Origin: Candidatus Saccharimonadota bacterium | Lineage (GTDB): Bacteria; Patescibacteriota; Saccharimonadia; Saccharimonadales; Saccharimonadaceae | DNA: 64,000 bases | Reading direction: 5' to 3' | Assembly (NCBI GenBank): GCA_017480035.1 | Contig: JAFVBJ010000002.1 | Span: forward strand, 62,001 to 126,000 | Part shown: piece after piece, positions 7,111 through 22,593 of the stretch | Position numbering within the stretch: position 1 is the stretch's first letter | Layout of the letters: the number at the start of each line of letters is the position of its first letter | Translations under genes and position numbers: made by a program | Notes under the pieces: model-generated | What the model was told of the DNA's origin: nothing | Databases searched by the model: none | What the model saw: the letters and a program-made list of their open reading frames with translations, nothing else

Positions 7111-8124
7111 ATGTCTGAAATTACAAATTCTGAAATCAAGAAAAAGAGCGAGTTTGATGTTTTCCAGTGGGCGAATCAAATCGAAGAATATAAAAACAAC
7201 GTGAGTTGTGAACTTTTCCTGTTTAATAAAGGGTACACGCCGTTTAAGGTACGATATTCTGATAAATTGACCGCGAGTGTCAAAGCGATGTTTATGATGG
7301 AAGCAACTTCGTACGTCATCAAAGAAGCGGACAAGGGGCTTGAGCAACGCGAATATGAAGATTCGGACGGGGAATCGAACGCAGTTTATCGTACAGACCT
7401 TTCGAACGTGATTCATGCAGAATCTTTGATTAATTTGATTGAGAAAGAATATAAAGACATTGAATACTTTAACGACGGCGGTTCTGGGTCGGAATTTAAG
7501 AAAATTAAGGGAATTATCGCGAAGTTTTCATATCTTGGGGGCGACGAAGGAAATAAAGTTTTCTATATCGCGAAGGGAATCGCTGGTTCGTCAGCGCTAA
7601 AAGGTGCGACTTCGTGGGAGCTGAATGGCGAAAGTTTCGAGCCGTTTGCAGCGGAAATTGCACTAAAAATGCCAGAAGATAACCAAGTTGCGATTGTGGA
7701 TGGGAATGTCGTGATTTTCAATCAGTCGAAATTCGAAACATTATTCCAATATGATTACAAAGCGCAGATGCTCGCGGATGCAAAAGCAAAAGAAATCATG
7801 CAAAAATATAAGTTGACGCTTGATGAAGGGTTGACGCTAAATGATTTGCTTCAGGACAAGAAACCGCTAGCAAAGAAGTTGAATGATATTGATATTCCGG
7901 CGGCGATGGACCAGAAAAAAGTGATTGAATATTGCGATGAAATGCAACTTGAGTTGATGTCGGACGAAGACGATTCAATTATTATCCAGGACGATAAGGA
8001 TCTTGCGATGTTCGTGAATCTTATTAATGAAGATTATTATATTTCGCCGGTGAATGGACTGCGATATGAGATTAAGTCGAAGAAATTGCTGGGGGAACCA
8101 GAGGGCGAAGCACCAAGAGGGTAG
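7111..8124 (+). CDS. DUF4868 protein, KwaB-like
   Basis: 337 residues. The central block (about 185-245), with VAIVDGNVVIFNQSKFETLFQYD followed by a long charged helix, and the C-terminal end NGLRYEIKSKK match what I recall of DUF4868, the domain of KwaB from the Kiwa anti-phage system. KwaB binds DNA and works with the membrane sensor KwaA. No KwaA-like small membrane protein is next to it: neighbours are CYTH upstream and, after a terminator, infB. AGGAGG lies just before the ATG. It may be a stand-alone DUF4868 protein; the defence role is inference. Confidence 0.6.
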   Translation: MSEITNSEIKKKSEFDVFQWANQIEEYKNNVSCELFLFNKGYTPFKVRYSDKLTASVKAMFMMEATSYVIKEADKGLEQREYEDSDGESNAVYRTDLSNVIHAESLINLIEKEYKDIEYFNDGGSGSEFKKIKGIIAKFSYLGGDEGNKVFYIAKGIAGSSALKGATSWELNGESFEPFAAEIALKMPEDNQVAIVDGNVVIFNQSKFETLFQYDYKAQMLADAKAKEIMQKYKLTLDEGLTLNDLLQDKKPLAKKLNDIDIPAAMDQKKVIEYCDEMQLELMSDEDDSIIIQDDKDLAMFVNLINEDYYISPVNGLRYEIKSKKLLGEPEGEAPRG

Positions 8125-12046: not shown

Positions 12047-13386
12047 TTTTTATCCTTTTTCGATTTTTCGACGATGATGGAAGCGAGACGGGTTAACATT
12101 TCGAGCTGGATGAGCTCACGGCGAGTTGATTCGACTTTGTTTTGGACCTTGCCGAAGATGATTTGGCCGATGACGTGATCTTTTTCGTCGGTCAGAATTG
12201 CGACGGAAGTGAGTTCGTTGTTATCGAAAACTTCTTTTGCCTCGGCGGTCGGAGTTTGCCAGACGCCACGTTTTGGCTCATCGAGCTTCTTTAGGATTTT
12301 CAAGTCGTTCGAGGAGAGTTGTTTGGCTTCGGAGCCGTAGAGTTTTTCGTTTATAATAAGACCGACATAAGTGAAATGGAGATGGTCGGCGAGAAAACCG
12401 GCGAGCTCGTTTAGATTAACTTTTTTCGCTTTTTGCATCAAATCGAGCTTTTTTGTGGCGTAGATGAGGTCGACTTGGTCGGTCGAGATGAGAGAGCGGA
12501 CGAAAGAGGAAATTTCGTTGATGGCAGGAATGAGTAAAATGAAAATGAGCGCCATGAGGACATTGAAAATGATGATGGCGGAACTTGGGTTCGGAGTTTT
12601 AAAGATGGCGGTGAAAATGATATAGAAGAAAAGCATGTAGACGGTCGCGACGGTCGCAAGGATGATGGCGTAAGAAAGAGCTTTGAGCCAGCCGGAATTG
12701 AGTTTGATGATACGATATTTTAAGACGGCGTAATAATGGGAAATCATGACGATTGAGAGTGCCATCGGTCCAATCCAAATCAAACTATAATCTTTGAGCG
12801 GGAGTAAGACATCGAAAATTAACATTAACGAGCCAGCGACGGCAGTGCCGGCACCGAGAATGAGAAGACCGTTCTTCAGGCCGCGATTTTTAGTCTTTTT
12901 GACGCGGAAAATTAGTGCAGTTAGAAGAACGATAGTGTTTATAAAATAAAAGGCGGCGTAGCAATAATAAAACCAGTTAAGGTTCAAGGCGACGGAGTTT
13001 AGTTCGTGCGAGAGAGTGAAGTTGGAATAAAGAATGGATGGGTCGTAAATGAGAAGGCCGGATAAAATAGCGGCGCCCATCGCCATAAAAAGTCCAAAAC
13101 CGCGGACAAATTTATATGGATAGCCGACGTAAACCATCAAGCAAACATCCATGAAAAGCGCAGGAATATAGATGCCATAGATGGAATATTTAGCGATTTC
13201 AGTGTCGGTCGGGGTGAGAGAAAGGAAAATTGCGACCGAAATCGTCCAAAGCGCAGCGAAAAAGACGGAAAAAGTGAAGAATTTTGAGGATTTTTTGTTC
13301 GATTTGCTAGAACCGCCAAGGACGGAAAGTCCGGAAGCGAACGTCAGAATCGCCGTTAGTGTTAGTAAAATTGTGATTAATTGCAC
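12043..13386 (-). CDS. Sensor-like membrane protein with GAF-like tail, no kinase domain (long paralogue)
   Basis: 447 residues, about nine hydrophobic segments in the first 290 residues (7TM histidine-kinase N-terminal-like), then a soluble GAF-like domain (HLHFTYVGLIINEKLYGS, about 325-435). No kinase, cyclase or methyl-accepting domain follows. The start is a GTG at 13386 with AAGGAGG upstream. It heads the operon that includes the CAP protein and the shorter paralogue. A plausible role is surface or envelope sensing that signals through a partner; this is inference. Confidence 0.6.
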   Translation of the reverse strand: MQLITILLTLTAILTFASGLSVLGGSSKSNKKSSKFFTFSVFFAALWTISVAIFLSLTPTDTEIAKYSIYGIYIPALFMDVCLMVYVGYPYKFVRGFGLFMAMGAAILSGLLIYDPSILYSNFTLSHELNSVALNLNWFYYCYAAFYFINTIVLLTALIFRVKKTKNRGLKNGLLILGAGTAVAGSLMLIFDVLLPLKDYSLIWIGPMALSIVMISHYYAVLKYRIIKLNSGWLKALSYAIILATVATVYMLFFYIIFTAIFKTPNPSSAIIIFNVLMALIFILLIPAINEISSFVRSLISTDQVDLIYATKKLDLMQKAKKVNLNELAGFLADHLHFTYVGLIINEKLYGSEAKQLSSNDLKILKKLDEPKRGVWQTPTAEAKEVFDNNELTSVAILTDEKDHVIGQIIFGKVQNKVESTRRELIQLEMLTRLASIIVEKSKKDKK

Positions 13387-13415
13387 TTGACCTCCTTTGC
13401 GCTTTTGTTTATAAT
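13387..13415 (+). promoter_or_regulatory. Near-consensus promoter for the surface-protein operon
   Basis: TTGACC (13387-13392), 17-bp spacer, TATAAT (13410-13415). It lies just outside the start of the divergent sensor gene, whose Shine-Dalgarno occupies the complement of the spacer. The predicted start is near 13422, 43 nt before the ATG. Confidence 0.75.
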
Positions 13416-13464
13416 TATTTTAGGCTTTTCCACTCAAAAGGTCAATATTTTAGTGGAAGAAAAA

Positions 13465-15222
13465 ATGGAAAAAGGTAATCCTGACTTAAAACACAGAATT
13501 TATGTAGTAGCAAAAATATTAACGTTTATCGCACTTTTCGGGTTGGCTGTGACGGCGATGACGTTCTCGGCAAAATCGATGTCTATGACGGAAGTGTCAG
13601 CTTCGGTGGGCGTGCCGAGTTCATGGGGAATTATTTCGGCGAATCATCCGGATGAAATCACGATTCCGATTACTTATTTTGATCAAACTTATTCTTGCGA
13701 TAATCGTGGGACAGGGACAAGACAATTTGAATTTGGACAATGTAATGATTCGCAAGGCGGGGGACTGCAAAGAGGAATTGTGAAAGACGCTCTCGGAAGC
13801 GATGGCTTGCCGGTGCCGGCATATGAAACTTCGGCGGATGCAAAGAAAGCTGGAGTTGATTATCAATCGCGCGGCGTGGTCGGGCATGACCCGGTCGTTT
13901 CCGGAGACCCATTTTATCGTTGGTTTCACGAAGTGAACGGCAAATCTGTGAAATATGAGCGGGAAATCGTGTTTAGTCGTGACGGCGCAACGAACCGTTA
14001 TGTATATGGCGGCAAGCAGATTTTCCCGCTAGATAACGTTTTGCAGAGCGACAAGAAATTGCTCGGGCATAATTTCCATTTCACGGCGCACCTCAAAGTT
14101 CCGATTCGAGTTGCGGTGTCGGGAAATGAAAAATTCGACTTTTCGGGCGATGATGATGTTTGGGTGTTTTTAAATGGGCAGTTGGTGCTCGACATTGGCG
14201 GCGTGCATACGGCGATTGACGGATACTTCACGATTAACAGTGACGGGTCAGTGTCGTCGGTGGTGAATGGGAAATATAAAAATACTTATAATTTAGGGCT
14301 TGAACGCGGAGATGTGGTCGACCTCGATTTCTTCTACGCGGAGCGCAACACTTCAGAGGCAAATACATTGATTACGATTTCGGAAATGGAATGGCCGATT
14401 CAAGCGGATTCGAAGCTCGAATCGTCGGTGATAAACAATAATATGCTGCAATATGTAGCAACAATCGCGAACCGTGACACTGCGAATGAAATTACGGTCG
14501 AGAAAATCGCGTCGTCGCTTTCGGGGACGGATGGAGATAGGGAAATTTCGGGATTCATTCCGTTAAATTCGGAAAATTTGGAATATTCATTCACGCCGAA
14601 CGACCTTTCGAGTTGGAAGAAAGTCGATGTTTCGGCGCCGTCTGATACGGACGATGGCTTTAAACTTGCGACACCAATCACGCTCAGTAAAGCTGGAAAA
14701 GAAAAATCGCAGGTCTATTTCCGTTATTATGTGAAGCCGGAAGAAAATGAAATTAACTACACAAACACAGTTTCGTTCTATACAATGAATAGTTCGGGAT
14801 ATAGCGGAATTGCGTATAGTACGGCGGAGGATAAAATCGATACTCTGCGCGTTAAGGATGTGACTGAACCGATTTCGGAACCGGAACCGGAGCCAGAATC
14901 TGAACCGACGCCGACGCCGGAACCGGAGATTGATTGTGACGCGGACCCGTTCGCAGAAGGCTGCATGGATGACGATTCGGCGGAAGATGATTTAGAGATT
15001 TTGCCGGTCTATGGCGAGATTGTGTTCGTGCCGGACACAGGAATTGTTTCAAGTTTTGTACATGACGTGCTCGGAGAGCAGCCATTTGCTAAGGTGGTGC
15101 TTTCACAGTGGTTTATTTTGGTAAACCTGGCGGTATTTTCGCTTAGCTTTTCAACTATGTATAGTCTCCGTAAATATTCGAGATTAGAGAATAAAGATGG
15201 AGGCTATGAACAACAAAAATAA
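13465..15222 (+). CDS. Fibro-slime/PA14-like surface protein with C-terminal VPDTG sorting-like signal
   Basis: 585 residues: N-terminal signal helix (about 15-35), then a fibro-slime/PA14-type domain (about 60-320) with FSGDDDVWVFLNGQLVLDIGG, a calcium- or glycan-binding type motif, a beta-rich region, a Pro/Glu-rich linker (about 455-480), and a C-terminal anchor: VPDTG at 522-526, about 25 residues, a hydrophobic helix, and a basic tail. Start at ATG 13465; a TTG at 13381 is open but lies upstream of the predicted transcription start. The VPDTG plus helix suggests the sortase at 51989-53155 could process it, although the gap before the helix is longer than in classical LPXTG proteins. Confidence 0.8.
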   Translation: MEKGNPDLKHRIYVVAKILTFIALFGLAVTAMTFSAKSMSMTEVSASVGVPSSWGIISANHPDEITIPITYFDQTYSCDNRGTGTRQFEFGQCNDSQGGGLQRGIVKDALGSDGLPVPAYETSADAKKAGVDYQSRGVVGHDPVVSGDPFYRWFHEVNGKSVKYEREIVFSRDGATNRYVYGGKQIFPLDNVLQSDKKLLGHNFHFTAHLKVPIRVAVSGNEKFDFSGDDDVWVFLNGQLVLDIGGVHTAIDGYFTINSDGSVSSVVNGKYKNTYNLGLERGDVVDLDFFYAERNTSEANTLITISEMEWPIQADSKLESSVINNNMLQYVATIANRDTANEITVEKIASSLSGTDGDREISGFIPLNSENLEYSFTPNDLSSWKKVDVSAPSDTDDGFKLATPITLSKAGKEKSQVYFRYYVKPEENEINYTNTVSFYTMNSSGYSGIAYSTAEDKIDTLRVKDVTEPISEPEPEPESEPTPTPEPEIDCDADPFAEGCMDDDSAEDDLEILPVYGEIVFVPDTGIVSSFVHDVLGEQPFAKVVLSQWFILVNLAVFSLSFSTMYSLRKYSRLENKDGGYEQQK

Positions 15223-16051
15223 TCTAAAAATAAAAAATATCTTCCTCGCGCTGGCTGTCCCGACCCTTTTGGTCGGGGTGGCTGGCGGAACTTTCATGGG
15301 GCTTTCGACGATTTTTGGGACGTCGGAGTCGAATCAGACTTCGGCGATTGCTTATGATAAAGACGACAGCGAGACGGAAGCGACGGAGACGAGCGACGAG
15401 AAGACGGAATCGGAAGAAACAGAGCAGGAAATTTCGGAAGAAGATTTGCCGGATACGCTGCCAAAAGAAACGAAAGAAGATTATAAAGAATCGGAAGTGG
15501 CGTTTGAGAAGAAAATTACGACAGTGGAAGCGATTGCGTTTTCGACGAACACGGTGAATGAAGTGAATCTCGCGCGCGGAAAAACGGTGATTTCGCAAAA
15601 GGGAATCGACGGTGAGAAGAAAATCACTTATCTCGTCAAATATAATAGCAAGGGCGAATCGCTCGCGATTACGAAAGTCAGCGAAGAAGTGACGAAAGAA
15701 CCGGTTACGCAAATCAAAAAAGTCGGAGTGAGCGACTATAATTTGAACGATAATATCGCGGTGACGAACTACGCGAGCGGAGTGTGTCTTTCGAGCGACG
15801 CGGACGCGAATGGATGTAAACGTGCAGCAGAATCATATAATTTTGCACAATCGATTGAAATTTCTGGAGTGCATTATGTGACACAAATTCAATTTGATAG
15901 CGGGACAAAAATCGTGTTTTTAAAAGTTTCTGACGACAATTTTTCGTATAACGGGAAGAAATATGTGTATGAAATTCGGTATGTGAGAAGCAAGGAAACG
16001 CTGACGAAAACGTTGTGTGATTCGTATGGATTTGCGTGCGGAAAATGGTAG
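15197..16051 (+). CDS. Membrane-anchored or secreted G5-domain protein
   Basis: 284 residues: one N-terminal membrane segment (about 14-36), a Glu/Thr/Ser-rich acidic stretch (about 55-95), a G5 domain (about 100-180: ending LAITKVSEEVTKEPVTQIKKVG), and a C-terminal domain with four cysteines. G5 domains bind N-acetylglucosamine-containing or surface polymers. Overlaps the preceding gene by 26 bp, so it is in the same operon. The start could be ATG 15197 or 15206; neither has a well-spaced ribosome-binding site. Confidence 0.75.
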   Translation: MEAMNNKNNLKIKNIFLALAVPTLLVGVAGGTFMGLSTIFGTSESNQTSAIAYDKDDSETEATETSDEKTESEETEQEISEEDLPDTLPKETKEDYKESEVAFEKKITTVEAIAFSTNTVNEVNLARGKTVISQKGIDGEKKITYLVKYNSKGESLAITKVSEEVTKEPVTQIKKVGVSDYNLNDNIAVTNYASGVCLSSDADANGCKRAAESYNFAQSIEISGVHYVTQIQFDSGTKIVFLKVSDDNFSYNGKKYVYEIRYVRSKETLTKTLCDSYGFACGKW

Positions 16052-16059
16052 AAAAAGTA

Positions 16060-16087
16060 TTGCAAAAGTATGTGATTTTGGTATAAT
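16060..16087 (+). promoter_or_regulatory. Promoter of the DGR target transcript
   Basis: TTGCAA (16060-16065), 16-bp spacer, TATAAT (16082-16087). The predicted start is near 16094, followed by AGGAGGT before the small ORF at 16118. Confidence 0.65.
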
Positions 16088-16117
16088 CATAAGTAGAAAT
16101 AGGAGGTATAGGTCGTA

Positions 16118-16414
16118 ATGGGTAAAAATAGGCGCAGTTTAAAAGAAGGTTTAAATCTTCCGGTAAATAGCGAAATTTTTGCGGTTTCTACCCCTGTTAT
16201 TTCCGAATTTTTCGATTTTTCGAAAAAACGCGCAGAAAGTATTCTTCTGCTAACAAAAAATTCTCTTTCGATACTGGGATTACGCTTGCGGAGAGCGCGT
16301 GAAAAGTCTCAAAAAAATGAGTGGAACAGTGGAAAAGTTTTCGTTCACGTGTCCGCTAAGCGCCCCAGTAGTACTTTTTATCATGCAGTAATAGAAAATA
16401 ATAAAATTTTATAA
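16118..16414 (+). CDS. Small hypothetical protein ahead of the DGR target
   Basis: 98 residues, basic, no membrane segment and no family I recognise. Supported by a promoter at 16060-16087 and an AGGAGGT about 11 nt upstream of the ATG. It lies 21 bp before the DGR target gene, so it would be co-transcribed with it. It may be a real accessory gene or a leader that sets target expression. Confidence 0.4.
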   Translation: MGKNRRSLKEGLNLPVNSEIFAVSTPVISEFFDFSKKRAESILLLTKNSLSILGLRLRRAREKSQKNEWNSGKVFVHVSAKRPSSTFYHAVIENNKIL

Positions 16415-16435
16415 AAATAGGTGGTTTTAAGGAAA

Positions 16436-18418
16436 ATGAGTATAATTATCGACAAAATAGACAAATTAAAGGTCCGTCAAAAAGTTTATGGTTACCTCTT
16501 AGTAGGGTTCTCATTTTTGGTCTTAACTATCATAACCGTAAAAACTTTGGCACCGGAAATTGGCGTTGATGCGGCGTCCCAGACCGCCTCGCAAACTGTC
16601 GGACCATATACAATGTCGATGAGCAACGATTCTGTCGCCACAATCAGCATCACTCCGACTGATTCTCAAGCTGTCTATACTGGCACGAATAACTTAAGCG
16701 TCACGAACACTTGCCCGTCTGGCGCAAGCATAACCATGACAACAAATTCGACTAGCTCAAATTCCTTGACCCGAACCGGCACAGATTCTTTAACTAAAGA
16801 AATCGCCGCGACGACGACCACTGCTCTCGACAATAATTCTTGGGGATATGCACTGAACAGCTCCTCGACTTACTATGCCGTCCCGAAGAAAGACGCGACC
16901 GCCGCAACAATCTATAACGCTACTGCTGCGCAGACTTCTGCGCTCTCAGTTCCGGTTAAGTTTGGCGTAAAAGTTGACAATAATATCCCGTCCGGCACCT
17001 ACACGAACGACGTACTATACACCATGACACCAAAATCCGGCTGTTTGATTTATTCACTCACTTGGGACATGAATAGCGGTACGGCAAAGTCCGGCGTGAC
17101 TTATCCATCGAGCTTAAGCTGGGGTGCTACAATCGACCTCTCGACGCTCACTCCGACCCGCAGTGGATACACATTTACCGGTTGGTCTAATGGTTCTTCT
17201 ACTTTTACCGGTTCTGAGACCGCTGCAAATCTCAATTCTGGCAACGCGAATTCGGTTACGGTTACTGCTCAATGGACGCCTGGAATCTATGCAATCACGC
17301 TCAATAATCAGTCCGCAACTTCTGCCGGAACGACAACGATTTATGAGAAATATGCAACCGGTTGGTACAGTAATAGCGCGGCTACAACGTCCATCTCATC
17401 CATCACAATCCCAACGAAGACTAACTACACATTCAAAGGCTATTACACAAGCACAGGATGCTCTGGAACGCAGCGTATCAACGCGAGTGGGACGATTACG
17501 GCTGGAAACACGACCTACACGGGCACAGGCACGTTGTACGCGTGCTGGGAAGCTAGTGCAACAGGACTTCATTCAATTACGACGATGCAGGAAATGACTT
17601 CGAGCGTTTGTTCGGCAACGACCACTCCAGCCAAAACAGCAACGACTTTCGACTGGGACGGTTCACATACCGGTGATACTAGCTATGTGCCGCGCAAAAA
17701 GCTTCAGGACACGCGAGACGGCAATTATTATCTTGTCTCAAAGCTCGCGGACGGTAACTGTTGGATGTCTCAGAGCTTGGCACTTGATTTAACGGCAAAC
17801 ACTTCTGTGGTAACTTCGACAACAAGCGGCGGTACGAGCACATTTACGCCGACAAACTCTACGCAGACTTCGACCGGAACGACTTGGGCGCAAAACGGCG
17901 GTAACGTCGCAAGGAGCTATCATCCACAATCTTCAGAAGCGTATTATAGAGCTGGTACGACGAAATCGAGCTCTCCAACTGGTTCTGGTGATACATATCT
18001 CTGGGAAAAGGCTGGAAACTACTACAACTGGTACACTGCGACAGGCGGAACCGGTACTAGCACGATGACTTCGAGCGACGCGACAGCATCAATCTGTCCG
18101 AAGGGTTGGAGATTGCCGCCAAACGGTACGGCCTCAAAGTCATATTATTACTTGATTACTACCACGTACGGTCTCGCATCGAGTTCGGCTGGCTCCACCT
18201 CTCTTCGCGCCGCTCCGCTTAATTTCAATTTATCCGGCTACTACTATTACAGCTCTGGCGCTATGGGCAGTCAGGGCTCGTACGGCTTCTATTGGTCTAG
18301 TACGGCCTACTCGAGTGCTAACTACGCGTACGACCTGTACTTCAGCACTAGCTACATCAGCCCTCAGGGCAGCAGCAGCAAGGGCCACGGGTTTTCCGTA
18401 CGTTGCGTCGCCTTGTAA
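16436..18418 (+). CDS. DGR target: secreted B-repeat protein with C-terminal FISUMP (C-type-lectin-like) domain
   Basis: 660 residues: signal peptide or anchor (about 20-45, cleavage plausible near GVDAASQ), a Ser/Thr-rich beta region, two InlB/Listeria-Bacteroides-type repeats (about 205-285 and 286-375, each with GYTFTGW or NYTFKGY), then a Fibrobacter-major-paralogue (FISUMP) domain from about 410 to the end (GNCWMSQSLALDL, CPKGWRLPP, FYWSSTAY, GFSVRCV). Residues about 598-659 are encoded by the VR. No C-terminal anchor. Start set at ATG 16436; GTG 16421 is possible. Codon use is richer in C-ending codons than in neighbouring genes, which may indicate transfer. Confidence 0.9.
   Translation: MSIIIDKIDKLKVRQKVYGYLLVGFSFLVLTIITVKTLAPEIGVDAASQTASQTVGPYTMSMSNDSVATISITPTDSQAVYTGTNNLSVTNTCPSGASITMTTNSTSSNSLTRTGTDSLTKEIAATTTTALDNNSWGYALNSSSTYYAVPKKDATAATIYNATAAQTSALSVPVKFGVKVDNNIPSGTYTNDVLYTMTPKSGCLIYSLTWDMNSGTAKSGVTYPSSLSWGATIDLSTLTPTRSGYTFTGWSNGSSTFTGSETAANLNSGNANSVTVTAQWTPGIYAITLNNQSATSAGTTTIYEKYATGWYSNSAATTSISSITIPTKTNYTFKGYYTSTGCSGTQRINASGTITAGNTTYTGTGTLYACWEASATGLHSITTMQEMTSSVCSATTTPAKTATTFDWDGSHTGDTSYVPRKKLQDTRDGNYYLVSKLADGNCWMSQSLALDLTANTSVVTSTTSGGTSTFTPTNSTQTSTGTTWAQNGGNVARSYHPQSSEAYYRAGTTKSSSPTGSGDTYLWEKAGNYYNWYTATGGTGTSTMTSSDATASICPKGWRLPPNGTASKSYYYLITTTYGLASSSAGSTSLRAAPLNFNLSGYYYYSSGAMGSQGSYGFYWSSTAYSSANYAYDLYFSTSYISPQGSSSKGHGFSVRCVAL
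18229..18413 (+). repeat. DGR variable repeat (VR)
   Basis: 185 bp matching the TR at 20636-20820 (minus). Counting by eye there are 20 differences: 19 at TR adenines (to T or G) and one C-to-T at 18287. The last ~35 bp before the stop (from AAGGGCCACGG to GTCGCCT) are identical and form the expected initiation-of-mutagenic-homing region. It ends 5 bp before the last base of the target stop codon. Confidence 0.97.
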
Positions 18419-18490
18419 AATTAGCAACCTGAAAGTTAAAGTTACGTCATCTTGAGCAAGTAAACTAACAAGCCGTCCGCCTGAATAAAT

Positions 18491-18551
18491 CGGCCGGCTC
18501 AAAAGGCCGGCCGGGAATAATTAATTTTGGCTCGCTGTGCGAGCCAAAATT
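18491..18551 (+). other. Two hairpins downstream of the VR
   Basis: CGGCCGGC/GCCGGCCG (8-bp GC stem, 7-nt loop, 18491-18513), then a 12-bp stem AATTTTGGCTCG/CGAGCCAAAATT with a 5-nt loop (18523-18551). The first resembles the GC-rich hairpin found just after the VR in DGRs and needed for efficient homing, although here it lies about 80 bp away. The second, followed by AAAAA rather than T, may be a terminator read from either strand. Confidence 0.6.
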
Positions 18552-18588
18552 TAAAAACGGATTTTTAGGCGTTATATATAGGAGAAAA

Positions 18589-19455
18589 ATGGGAAGAAAG
18601 TCTAAATCGGAAGAGCTAGCTAAAACGCAAACAACGATTTTTGAGGCTGTTGAGGCTGTGGAGGATAAGAAAAAGGCGGAAAAGAAAGTCGAAAACGACA
18701 AAAAATCGGAAGACGGGCGAAAATTCCACGCGGAATATAATAAAAATAAGAAAATTGTGATGAGTTTCGAGAAAGGAAATCTTCAGTATATTTTTCTTTT
18801 GAAATCATCGAATGATTTTTGGAAAATGTTTTCGACTTCGGCTTTGTATTATGCTAGAGTTTTGGCGAGGAGACATAATAAATCCGTGAAGATACATATC
18901 GACAAGGATATGTATTATTCGTATGATGGATATGTTGCGATTCGTGATTTTGATGGGTTTTTGGAGATTATGGAAGCGGAAGGAGCGAAGTATGACGAAA
19001 CGCATTCGCCGAATGAATATATTAGAGCCTATAAATTAAAGGAAATGATTCCGGAAGAAGAAATTAAGGGGCTTAGGAAACAAGAAAAGAACGAGCGTGA
19101 GAAAGTTAATGAGATTTTGAAAACGGCCGAACAATATCCGGATATTAATTTTGCTTTGAATGAGTTTGTGAATCGAGTTGTGATTGAATATCGTAAGGAA
19201 CACAATAACGATAGGCTGAAAATTCTCGGGAGATTGCTTGACGTGGCGATTGATATGAAAGTTGCGTTTCGGGATATGTGTAATAGGCTTATTTCGAAAG
19301 AAGAATGGAGAGCGCAGAATGATGTGTATATGAGCCACGTTGAAGCGTATATCGATACAATTACGGCGACTGGGACGATGACGGTTGAGTCGATTTCGAT
19401 TCTTGCGAATCTACACGGAAAAACGAAACAGTTAATCTCAAAAGGCCGATTCTAA
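18589..19455 (+). CDS. DGR accessory protein (MutS-like N-terminus, Avd-like helical C-terminus)
   Basis: 288 residues. After a Lys/Glu-rich tail (1-55), residues about 58-130 (YIFLLKSSNDFWKMFSTSA and following) loosely resemble the MutS domain-I fold; MutS-like (MSL) proteins are a known DGR accessory type. The C-terminal ~110 residues are predicted all-helical (LKILGRLLDVAIDMKVAFRDMC, then a helix ending KTKQLISKGRF) and resemble the Avd four-helix bundle that binds DGR reverse transcriptase. Starts after GGAG; the stop lies 1 nt before the RT start, so the two are tightly coupled. Domain calls are from pattern only. Confidence 0.6.
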   Translation: MGRKSKSEELAKTQTTIFEAVEAVEDKKKAEKKVENDKKSEDGRKFHAEYNKNKKIVMSFEKGNLQYIFLLKSSNDFWKMFSTSALYYARVLARRHNKSVKIHIDKDMYYSYDGYVAIRDFDGFLEIMEAEGAKYDETHSPNEYIRAYKLKEMIPEEEIKGLRKQEKNEREKVNEILKTAEQYPDINFALNEFVNRVVIEYRKEHNNDRLKILGRLLDVAIDMKVAFRDMCNRLISKEEWRAQNDVYMSHVEAYIDTITATGTMTVESISILANLHGKTKQLISKGRF

Positions 19456-19456
19456 A

Positions 19457-20575
19457 ATGGGGTTTGATTTTAGCGAGGCACAACGGGATTGGCTGTTTCG
19501 TGAAATATATAAAGCATATATTCAAGCAAGAAAAAACAAACGTAAGACGGCAGATGAATTTAAGTTTGAGATAAATTATATTGATAATCTGAACGGGCTG
19601 GTCGAGTCGATTTTAAGTCGAGACTATCAACCGTCGAGAAGTATGGCGTTTGTGACGTTTAAGCCGGTGACGCGAGAGATTTTTGCGGCGCCGTTTCGAG
19701 ATAGAGTTGTGCACCATTTTTTGTTTAATCGAAACGGAGGATGGTGGGATAGAAGGTTTATCTACGACTCGTACTCTTGTCGGAAAGGGAAGGGGACTTT
19801 GATGGCGGTTGAACGGTTGGTGAAAAAAGAGCGCCAGATTTCGCAAAATTATAAAAAGAAAACTTGGGTGTATAAATTTGATATTCAAGCGTTTTTCATG
19901 AGTTTGCCGAGGAGAGAACTCTATTCGAGGGTGCTCTGGGGCTTAAAAAGACAATATCCGAAAGGTGGATTTGAATTTGAAGTTTGTCGATTTTTGTGGC
20001 ACCGGATTATTATGGATGACCCGACGGTTGGGGCGAGAAAGCGTGGACATGCGGAAAATTGGAGTCCGAAAATTTTGCCACCGTCGAAAAGTTTGTTTAA
20101 TCAACCGCCAGGACAGGGAATTGTGATTGGGAATTTGACTTCGCAACTTTTGTCGAATATTTATCTCGATAAGCTTGATAAATTTGTTACGCAGAAACTC
20201 GGGCATAAATATTATGGGCGATATGTTGATGATTTTTATATTTTTGTGTTGGAAAAAGATAGATGGAAAATGGATGAGGATATACGGGAAATCGAGACTT
20301 TTTTGCTCGGAATGGGACTGAAGTTGCATCCGAAAAAGCGTTATATTCAGCCGATAGAAAAAGGCGTGCAGTTTATCGGAGCGCAGATTTATCCGAGGAG
20401 GGTTCTGCCGAGTAAGAGAGTGATTGGGAATTTTCGGTCGGCGGCGCAGAGATATATGATGGGGATGGTTGAAGACGATTCGATTATTTCGTATCTCGGG
20501 TTAATGGAACACAGGGATTCACACAAGGTTATTTCGGAGATTTTTAGCGAGGTCGGATGGGAATATAAAAAATAA
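19457..20575 (+). CDS. DGR reverse transcriptase
   Basis: 372 residues with RT motifs in order: FDIQAFF (141-147, first catalytic Asp), IGNLTSQ (224-230, the SQ form typical of DGR RTs in place of the usual SP), YVDD (256-259, catalytic pair), and GLKLHPKK (motif 5). It copies TR RNA into cDNA with errors at adenines, which then replaces the VR. Upstream ATFK-type motif: FVTFKPVTREIFAAPFRDRVVHH. Length and motif spacing match DGR RTs. Terminated by the hairpin at 20570-20597. Confidence 0.96.
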   Translation: MGFDFSEAQRDWLFREIYKAYIQARKNKRKTADEFKFEINYIDNLNGLVESILSRDYQPSRSMAFVTFKPVTREIFAAPFRDRVVHHFLFNRNGGWWDRRFIYDSYSCRKGKGTLMAVERLVKKERQISQNYKKKTWVYKFDIQAFFMSLPRRELYSRVLWGLKRQYPKGGFEFEVCRFLWHRIIMDDPTVGARKRGHAENWSPKILPPSKSLFNQPPGQGIVIGNLTSQLLSNIYLDKLDKFVTQKLGHKYYGRYVDDFYIFVLEKDRWKMDEDIREIETFLLGMGLKLHPKKRYIQPIEKGVQFIGAQIYPRRVLPSKRVIGNFRSAAQRYMMGMVEDDSIISYLGLMEHRDSHKVISEIFSEVGWEYKK

Positions 20576-20597
20576 AGGGCTTTTACACCCTTTATTT
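20570..20597. terminator. Bidirectional terminator between RT and TR
   Basis: AAATAAAGGG/CCCTTTATTT with an 8-nt loop, T-rich on both strands. It can stop the RT transcript on the plus strand and the TR transcript on the minus strand. Confidence 0.75.
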
Positions 20598-20599
20598 TA

Positions 20600-21128
20600 T
20601 TCTTTTGGGGACGTCGGCAGAACAACGAAAACCTTAGGCGACGCAACGTACGGAAAACCCGTGGCCCTTGTTGTTGTTGTTCTGAGGGTTGATGTTGCTA
20701 GTGTTGAAGTTCAGGTTGTACGCGTTGTTAGCACTCGAGTTGGCCGTACTAGACCAATAGTGGCCGTTCGAGCCCTGATTGTTCATAGCGCCAGAGCTGT
20801 AATTGTAGTTGCCGGATAAAGCTCTATCTCGGCATGAAACTACAAATAGAGCAGGCGGCGGAACAAGCGCAGCGGTTCGAATGCTAGGGTGACGCACCTG
20901 TAGGATAACTTCAGACCAGACAATCAAACCCGTGGACAAAGAAGCCCAAAGGCCTGTCCGAGGCGGATCTGGTGCTGCTCGCTTGGCTTTTTGGTAATTT
21001 TTACCACCAAACGGACATTTTAGTCCTCACGTTTTATGTAAGGCCACCTCTGCCGTCCCCTTTTTCGGTGCTATCTTAAGCTCAGATAGACATCTTTGGA
21101 GGCTGCTCATTGAGCTTTGAAGCCTCTT
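20600..21128 (-). ncRNA. Predicted TR transcript with ~300-nt structured 5' leader
   Basis: A minus-strand TATAAT at 21135-21140 (no clear -35) predicts a start near 21128; the transcript would run through the TR to the hairpin at 20570-20597. The leader (21128-20821) folds by eye into several hairpins: GAGGCT/AGCCTC, CTATCT/AGATAG, TGGTAA/TTACCA, GGACA/TGTCC, and GCTCTAT/ATAGAGC ending exactly at the TR edge. No coding potential or known RNA motif (tmRNA, RNase P, SRP) was recognised. Confidence 0.55.
20636..20820 (-). repeat. DGR template repeat (TR), inverted relative to RT and target
   Basis: Read on the minus strand, 185 bp corresponding to the VR. In the VR frame it has 17 Asn (AAC/AAT) codons, including a run of four near the end; 16 of these differ in the VR, mostly to Tyr, Ser, Gly or Asp. 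Flanks on both sides diverge from the VR at once, fixing the ends. An apparent 101-residue minus-strand frame across it is a by-product of the VR homology and not a gene. Confidence 0.96.
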
Positions 21129-21211
21129 ATGGTTATTATAGCGTAAAATGGGGGAGGGGAGATGGGAAGTTTTTGTAAATTTTTACAAAAACTTCTTGAA
21201 AAAATGGTTAT

Positions 21212-21252
21212 TTTTCGTAAAATTTGGAATGGTACTCCGAATTTTACGAAAA
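21212..21252. repeat. 41-bp palindrome, copy 1 (downstream of the ATPase)
   Basis: TTTTCGTAAAATT and AATTTTACGAAAA arms enclose TGGA-ATGGTAC-TCCG. Identical over all 41 bp to 22553-22593. It begins 2 bp beyond the ATPase stop codon and could also act as a terminator. Confidence 0.85.
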
Positions 21253-21254
21253 AA

Positions 21255-22535
21255 CTAAATATATTCCACTGGGACCGCTAAGACGTCATCTGCGACAGGA
21301 ACTATTTCCCGTGTGTTGCAGATAATTGTTCCTGGCATAATTTTTCTTTCGCCAGCTTCTTTTTCTAGAGTAGAGAAATTTTTTGCAGCATCGAAAGATG
21401 GGGTGGTTGAAGTTTTCTTAATTTCAATTGGGTATAATTTGTTTCCGTCACGAATGACTAAATCGACTTCTTTTTGGTCATAATTACGATAGTAATAAAT
21501 CTTATCTTTCGGGTCGATACCGTTATTAACGAAAGATTTGAGAATTTCATTAAAAACGTAAGTTTCGAAAATTGCACCGCTGTATGCGCTATTGTGGAGT
21601 AATTCGCCGCCACTATATCCGGCGAGATAGCTTGCTAAGCCAGTGTCGGTGAAATAGATTTTTGGACGTTTGATGGCACGAGAGTTCGCATTATTGGAGT
21701 ATGGATGAACGAGGTAGATAAGATGGGTATTTTTCACGACCGAAAGCCATTCGTCTGCAGTTTTTGAATCGATTTGGACGTCTGATGCAATACCTGAAGC
21801 GTTGTATTCTTGGCCGGTGCGTGCAGCAAGACAAGAGAGAAAACGCACGAATTTTACCTCATCTTTAACTGAAGCGATAGCGCGGATGTCACGTTCGATA
21901 TAAGTTTTTACATAGTCTGAATAGAAACGGTCGGTTTTAATGGCGTCATTGATGTATAATTCTGGGTATGAACCTCTGATGATGCGGTTGAAGATTTTGA
22001 GGGAATCGAGATGTGAGGAATGGGAACGGGTTTTTAGGGATTTATGATCTGGAATGAACGGGGATTGGCTTAGTTGTTCTTTATTGCCGTCAATTTCTCG
22101 TGCGCTGAGGGTGTATAGATTGTAAAGGCCGATGCGGCCGGCAAGGGAATCGCTGACGTCTTTCATGGTTTCGAAAACTTGTGAGCCGGTAAGGTAATAT
22201 AAGGTGCCGACTTTTTTGTGGGTTTTAAAGAGAGAATTGCTGCGAACGCGGTCTACGCGCATTTTAATATAGGAGAGAAGTTTCGGGGCGTATTGGAATT
22301 CATCAATAATTAAGGGCGTGCCGAGCGCGTCTAGGAAGGCTTCTGGGTCTTCGTTGGCCTGCATGCGCAAGGCGATGTCATCAAGCGTGACGGCGCGAGG
22401 GCTATCCGGCAGTTTTTTTGATAAGTAGTTTAGAAAAGTTGATTTTCCAACTTGGCGTGGACCAGCCAACAAAATAACTGGCGAAGTATTGAAACTTTGC
22501 GCAGTGTTTTCCAAAATTCTATGCTTATATTCCAT
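21255..22535 (-). CDS. AAA ATPase with DUF4143 domain
   Basis: 426 residues: N-terminal AAA_14-type P-loop GPRQVGKS (about 26-33), Walker B LIIDEFQYAP (about 95-104), sensor TGSQ, then a DUF4143 C-terminal domain with IYFTDTGLASYL and the nuclease-like EVDLVI...PIEIKKT pattern (D-x11-ExK type). Such ATPases are common accessory genes of unclear role. Two identical palindromes bracket it within 2 bp (3' side) and 18 bp (5' side). TATAAT at 22542-22547 gives a start exactly at the ATG, so the upstream palindrome covers the -35 region and could be an operator. Confidence 0.85.
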   Translation of the reverse strand: MEYKHRILENTAQSFNTSPVILLAGPRQVGKSTFLNYLSKKLPDSPRAVTLDDIALRMQANEDPEAFLDALGTPLIIDEFQYAPKLLSYIKMRVDRVRSNSLFKTHKKVGTLYYLTGSQVFETMKDVSDSLAGRIGLYNLYTLSAREIDGNKEQLSQSPFIPDHKSLKTRSHSSHLDSLKIFNRIIRGSYPELYINDAIKTDRFYSDYVKTYIERDIRAIASVKDEVKFVRFLSCLAARTGQEYNASGIASDVQIDSKTADEWLSVVKNTHLIYLVHPYSNNANSRAIKRPKIYFTDTGLASYLAGYSGGELLHNSAYSGAIFETYVFNEILKSFVNNGIDPKDKIYYYRNYDQKEVDLVIRDGNKLYPIEIKKTSTTPSFDAAKNFSTLEKEAGERKIMPGTIICNTREIVPVADDVLAVPVEYI

Positions 22536-22552: not shown

Positions 22553-22593
22553 TTTTCGTAAAATTTGGAATGGTACTCCGAATTTTACGAAAA
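22553..22593. repeat. 41-bp palindrome, copy 2 (upstream of the ATPase)
   Basis: Identical and in direct orientation to 21212-21252, 1,341 bp away. It overlaps the predicted -35 region of the ATPase gene, so repression by a dimeric binder or recognition as an element end are both possible. Confidence 0.85.

Follow-up and report, generated by a model that had tools for sequence, protein, structure and literature searches.

A chromosomal diversity-generating retroelement with an antisense template repeat in a Ca. Nanosyncoccus-group saccharibacterium

Two inverted repeats of 185 nt, 89% complementary to each other, lie at 18229-18413 and 20636-20820 of a 64,000-nt stretch of saccharibacterial DNA (hereafter the window). 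The arrangement raises the question of whether this is a working diversity-generating retroelement (DGR), which protein it would vary, and whether it would do so in the manner of the DGR of Bordetella phage BPP-1. The genome (773 kb in three contigs, 97.5% complete) is that of a Ca. Nanosyncoccus-group saccharibacterium; the genomes that carry related reverse transcriptases (RTs) are labelled Candidatus Saccharibacteria and are mostly ruminant gut MAGs, Ca. Nanosyncoccus alces among them. We are highly confident that the locus is a functional chromosomal DGR which diversifies a gene with a FISUMP domain.

The locus and the pattern of altered adenines

The variable repeat (VR; 18229-18413, plus strand) stops 5 nt short of the target gene's 3' end, stop codon included. 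The template repeat (TR; 20636-20820, minus strand) is downstream of the RT gene and antisense to it, as a separate unit, and the accessory and RT genes occupy the space between the two repeats. Identity between TR and VR ends abruptly on both sides. Of the 185 positions, 20 are mismatched: 19 are TR adenines and one is a C>T change; with 54 adenines in 185 positions, this excess is highly significant (hypergeometric P = 8e-11). Eleven of the altered adenines became G and eight became T, with no A>C; all of them lie at the first or second position of a codon, and the target frame remains open. The same bias was found genus-wide, where 1103 of the 1183 mismatches in 53 TR/VR pairs (93%) are at TR adenines: 482 changed to G, 481 to T and 140 to C. 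The rate of change depends on context, since it is 63% for the first A of AAY, 39% for the second and 7% for the remaining adenines. The absence of A>C from the window VR was considered as a special trait and rejected: A>C is scarce throughout the genus and in viral-contig relatives (12-13%), and its equal scarcity in viral DGRs (12%) marks it as generic.

The RT (372 aa; 19457-20575, plus strand) begins 1 nt after the accessory gene (288 aa; 18589-19455, plus strand) and is of the DGR type, with IGNLTSQ and YVDD motifs. Among solved structures it is closest to the BPP-1 DGR RT (8ub7, E 6.6e-42), other RTs reaching 3e-14 at best, and it matches PHROG 1423 with an E-value of 7e-74. Both reading frames are stop-free and the target is also intact. 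The initial annotation had described a 185-bp VR, a TR on the opposite strand and 19 adenine differences plus one other, figures that proved exact on recount; its accessory gene and RT with these two motifs between VR and TR were likewise found, with intact frames. Its overall reading of the locus as a complete DGR also holds, on the strength of the adenine-specific TR/VR pair, the DGR-type RT, an accessory protein with the Avd fold and a strain comparison within the same genus (the last two are described below). The locus is a genuine, complete DGR.

In the mechanism that we propose, the TR RNA would be made as its own minus-strand transcript and the accessory protein (Avd) and RT would be expressed from a plus-strand operon. 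The two proteins would reverse-transcribe the TR RNA with adenine-specific errors, and the resulting cDNA would replace the VR at the 3' end of the FISUMP gene. Up to ~20 residues of a C-type-lectin-like domain could vary as a result, with stop codon, frame and scaffold kept constant.

Beside the DGR, two identical 41-bp near-palindromes (21212-21252 and 22553-22593), the sole two copies in the genome, enclose a single AAA_14/DUF4143 gene (21255-22535). The arrangement is suggestive of a mobile or selfish cassette adjoining the element.

The diversified protein and its possible role

The target gene (16421-18418, plus strand) codes for 665 aa, with an N-terminal hydrophobic segment, a List_Bact_rpt region and a C-terminal FISUMP domain (TIGR02145, residues 524-663); a likelier start is the ATG at 16436, which is preceded by AAGGAAA. 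A FISUMP domain is present in 30/30 aligned DGR targets tested, and no further FISUMP genes were found in the genome. The AlphaFold model of the target (pLDDT 77.5) displays a C-type-lectin-like (CTLD-like) fold in its C-terminal 282 aa. Structural comparison with VIA-align returned 10 rows with Z >=2, mostly representing one fold: the best was the C-terminal domain of Legionella Lcl (Z 6.8, rmsd 2.7, 107 aligned), followed by intimin (5.6), snake and human C-type lectins (~5-5.5) and BPP-1 Mtd (5.4). The Z-scores for this fold are modest (4.6-6.8), and the CTLD rows come from VIA-align only, Foldseek having given no confident match for the model. The predicted fold supports a C-type-lectin-like C-terminus. 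The initial annotation had proposed a secreted lectin-like protein; the lectin-like part is backed by the modelled fold, and what speaks for secretion is the N-terminal hydrophobic segment in the sequence. Given that segment the target is probably exported, and it may be displayed on the cell surface, though no C-terminal anchor was found in it.

Directly upstream of the target, at 13381-16051 (plus strand), are genes for a PA14/fibro-slime protein with a sorting-like tail (VPDTG-hydrophobic-basic) and an overlapping G5-domain protein. Three sortases are encoded in the genome. It is possible that the PA14/fibro-slime, G5 and target genes form a surface-adhesin cluster. A 98-aa ORF without known family (16118-16414, plus strand) separates the G5 gene from the target.

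Saccharibacteria are obligate epibionts and, to our knowledge, the proteins by which they recognise their hosts are largely unknown. Binding of the target to the host bacterium or to gut surfaces, and hence a role in host recognition, is plausible. Genus-wide, self-diversifying, exported lectin-like proteins would be concrete candidates for host recognition, the varied residues being the place to look for binding. Where the function of a DGR target with a CTLD fold is known, as for BPP-1 Mtd, it is to bind a ligand, and exported-type proteins with PA14/fibro-slime and G5 domains precede the target; both observations argue against variation serving escape from phage or predator binding rather than attachment to the host bacterium. 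We regard such escape as somewhat unlikely, but it has points in its favour: cellular DGR targets can double as phage receptors (Roux et al. 2021, PMC8144416), and a KwaB-like (Kiwa anti-phage) gene at window positions 7111-8124 (plus strand; PF16162, E 5e-9) hints at phage pressure.

Spread and recent activity in the genus

Among 174 genomes of the genus, 97 carry a related RT, in up to four copies each. These relatives were detected by an alignment-based search, a single-sequence search of the genome contigs with the RT having given no match. Contig C3 of the window's own genome holds a further complete DGR (L004; 5787-9258 within G000:C3:22000-33000), absent from the initial annotation; it has a layout like the window's, an RT 54% identical to the window RT and 29/30 mismatches at TR adenines. 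The repeats of the two DGRs are ~75% alike, their TRs differing in 54/181 columns, and each TR is a good match for its own VR only; no extra VRs for either TR were found in the genome. When the two VRs are compared, the differences occupy 20/44 shared TR adenines and 0/83 positions elsewhere.

Recent activity was assessed with a pair of near-identical genomes, G134 and G145 (locus DNA 95.9% identical, RT 98%). Three of 237 sites differ between the two TRs, as against 27 between the VRs. These VR differences affect 24 of the 61 shared TR-adenine sites and none of the 173 shared non-adenine sites, and the three TR changes recur in each genome's own VR, as expected from TR-to-VR copying. In the target protein, 16 of 20 amino acid differences are inside the VR. 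The anticipation, in the initial annotation, that VR differences between strains would be confined to TR adenines was thus borne out on this pair; the test covers genus relatives, no sister strain for the window's own locus having been found. Since the VRs of near-identical genomes differ at many shared TR adenines and at no shared non-adenine site, mutagenic TR-to-VR copying has taken place recently in the DGR family of this genus. The window's own copy is probably active now, to judge from its sequence.

A perfect GC-only inverted repeat of 8 bp with a 7-nt loop (18491-18513) is located 77 nt after the VR. Among the 53 loci, perfect GC-rich hairpins were observed downstream of the VR in 51% and downstream of the TR in 8%, compared with 0% for shuffled sequences. 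A hairpin/cruciform downstream of the VR is necessary for efficient homing in BPP-1, and phage DGR hairpins lie 4-34 bp from the VR and have a GRNA loop (PMC3240598). By analogy, 18491-18513 is a candidate counterpart of the BPP-1 element; it could be a terminator instead, since the 77-nt distance and the 7-nt loop depart from the phage consensus. The distance, beyond the phage range, also lends something to the view that the locus is a relic, i.e. a once-active DGR whose VR/TR differences are old and whose homing has been lost. This is improbable, because none of the three reading frames (RT, accessory and target) is broken and the VR is the same as its own TR at every non-adenine site but one, though many of these sites vary among the TRs of the genus. 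Such a near-full match argues that the VR was rewritten from the window TR after this TR had diverged.

The RTs of Nanosyncoccus form one clade (support 0.945) which, in a tree sampled by similarity, groups with RTs from viral contigs, apart from the other sampled Patescibacteria RTs; tentatively, this placement suggests a horizontal origin. One contig labelled Ca. Nomurabacteria (L147, JAITNW010000014.1) carries an RT that shares 51% identity with that of the window, reflecting either transfer across CPR phyla or mis-binning. DGRs in CPR bacteria are already known. A literature search found no account of DGRs in this genus, key DGR papers being outside its reach; what is new here is their genus-wide, multi-copy occurrence in gut Saccharibacteria, together with an enlarged Avd and a reversed TR layout.

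Accessory protein, template RNA and comparison with known DGRs

The accessory protein comprises a long helix (residues 5-61), an alpha/beta domain (67-149) and an Avd-type four-helix bundle (residues ~162-288, DNA 19072-19452); the model, for which 48 relatives were aligned, has a pLDDT of 93.6. Pfam, PHROG and NCBIfam gave no family match. The possibility of a new family was discarded once structure and order- and phylum-wide searches had pointed to Avd with an extension. With VIA-align, the best rows for the C-terminal bundle are S23-family structures (Z 16.0 and 14.8) and BPP-1 Avd (13.6 and 13.4). Stand-alone ORFs of ~105-130 aa next to the RTs of other Patescibacteria match the accessory profile only at ~162-267 (E 1e-4 to 1e-11). 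Because the bundle has the Avd/S23 fold and these stand-alone Avd ORFs match the C-terminal domain only, the accessory protein is, by fold, distant sequence similarity and context, an Avd with ~150 extra N-terminal residues (the long helix and the alpha/beta domain). L312, which comes from a sister genus within the family, has the long form as well.

The alpha/beta domain weakly resembles MutS domain I: hhalign gives a probability of 25%, below a safe call, with the alignment falling in the expected DFYE region, and Pfam MutS_I was detected in 1 of the 48 relatives (E 0.041). The likeness recalls 'MSL' (PF01624), a named DGR accessory (PMC10053308), but at this probability identity of the N-terminal domain with MutS-I is not established. 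A whole-genome search of G000 for MutS domain I gave no match above the cut-off, and MutS-type mismatch repair seems to be absent from this genome. Some related Avd proteins, those of L067 and L078 among them, have an additional N-terminal Cro/CI-type HTH domain, which suggests DNA binding or self-regulation.

The TR is downstream of the RT and antisense to it in 60 of 64 loci of related Saccharibacteria, whereas in viral relatives (61 of 64 loci) and in other Patescibacteria (21 of 27) it precedes the RT on the same strand. In L312 and L164, VR and TR keep the same inverted relation and the accessory-RT block is reversed. The closest RT relatives of L164 (67%) share the window's TR orientation, so the block must have turned within the genus. 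We infer that it did so by recombination between VR and TR, which fits their being inverted repeats around the block; the turning may be a side effect of the repeats. That the repeats are instead an invertible or gene-conversion cassette, exchanging VR and TR by DNA recombination with no retroelement, is scarcely credible: the repeats do flank a block found the opposite way round in L312 and L164, but RT and Avd are present, and DNA recombination would not alter template adenines alone (19/20 in the window, 1103/1183 in the genus), a bias which refutes it as the source of diversity.

In the DGR, the convergent RT and TR units are separated by a bidirectional terminator-like hairpin (20569-20598; z -3.3) that begins about 38-40 nt past the TR. 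On the other side of the TR, a 5' leader is predicted for the TR RNA (310 nt; 20821-21130, minus strand); it is non-coding and structured (z -2.9 versus shuffled sequences). A -10-like TATAAT is at 21140-21135, by the predicted leader; scanning for promoters gave no complete sigma-70 site, and an Rfam scan returned tRNAs only. The nearest relative retains a 13-nt leader motif, GACGGCAGAGGTG, and a hairpin whose pairing is preserved by a compensatory change; the motif occurs in these two loci only. The BPP-1 template requires a structured 3' spacer (PMC12875486, PMC8867640). Since the terminator follows so closely, little room is left at the window locus for a 3' spacer RNA like that of BPP-1, unless transcription enters the antisense RT gene; this applies to the window locus, as a simple scan detected a terminator after the TR in 12 of 53 loci. 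Because it folds better than shuffled sequences and its motif and hairpin are kept in the nearest relative, the leader is a candidate functional part and could replace the 3' spacer. A bolder proposal, which we put forward as rather unlikely speculation, is a lineage-specific type of DGR whose TR RNA is transcribed independently, in antisense, and is recognised through the 5' leader, the added N-terminal domains of the enlarged Avd or both, in place of a BPP-1-like 3' spacer RNA. In such a DGR the accessory-RT block could also flip by recombination between the VR/TR inverted repeats, perhaps turning the element on or off.

The window DGR shares with that of BPP-1 (brt, avd, TR, VR, mtd) the RT type, the Avd fold, adenine mutagenesis and a CTLD target with the VR at its 3' end; the inverted repeat past the VR is a candidate further parallel. 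It differs in that the BPP-1 TR is upstream on the RT strand, not downstream and antisense, in the ~150 additional N-terminal residues of its Avd, in having a terminator immediately after the TR and so little room for a long 3' spacer RNA, and in its host, a reduced-genome epibiont, and FISUMP target. With the DGRs of other Patescibacteria, among which a CPR-restricted DGR clade 2 has been described (Roux et al. 2021, PMC8144416), it has in common a chromosomal location, a reduced genome and homologous Avd and RT; it departs from the loci that we read in its enlarged rather than stand-alone Avd, and from most of them in the position and strand of its TR. RT and TR on opposite strands are also characteristic of the G5 inverted-orientation cassettes, a rare layout (G1 is >20 times as frequent; PMC6642488) which in the window's genus is the rule. 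The combination of inverted layout, enlarged Avd and little room for a BPP-1-like 3' spacer makes this locus a natural test of what a DGR needs from its template RNA.
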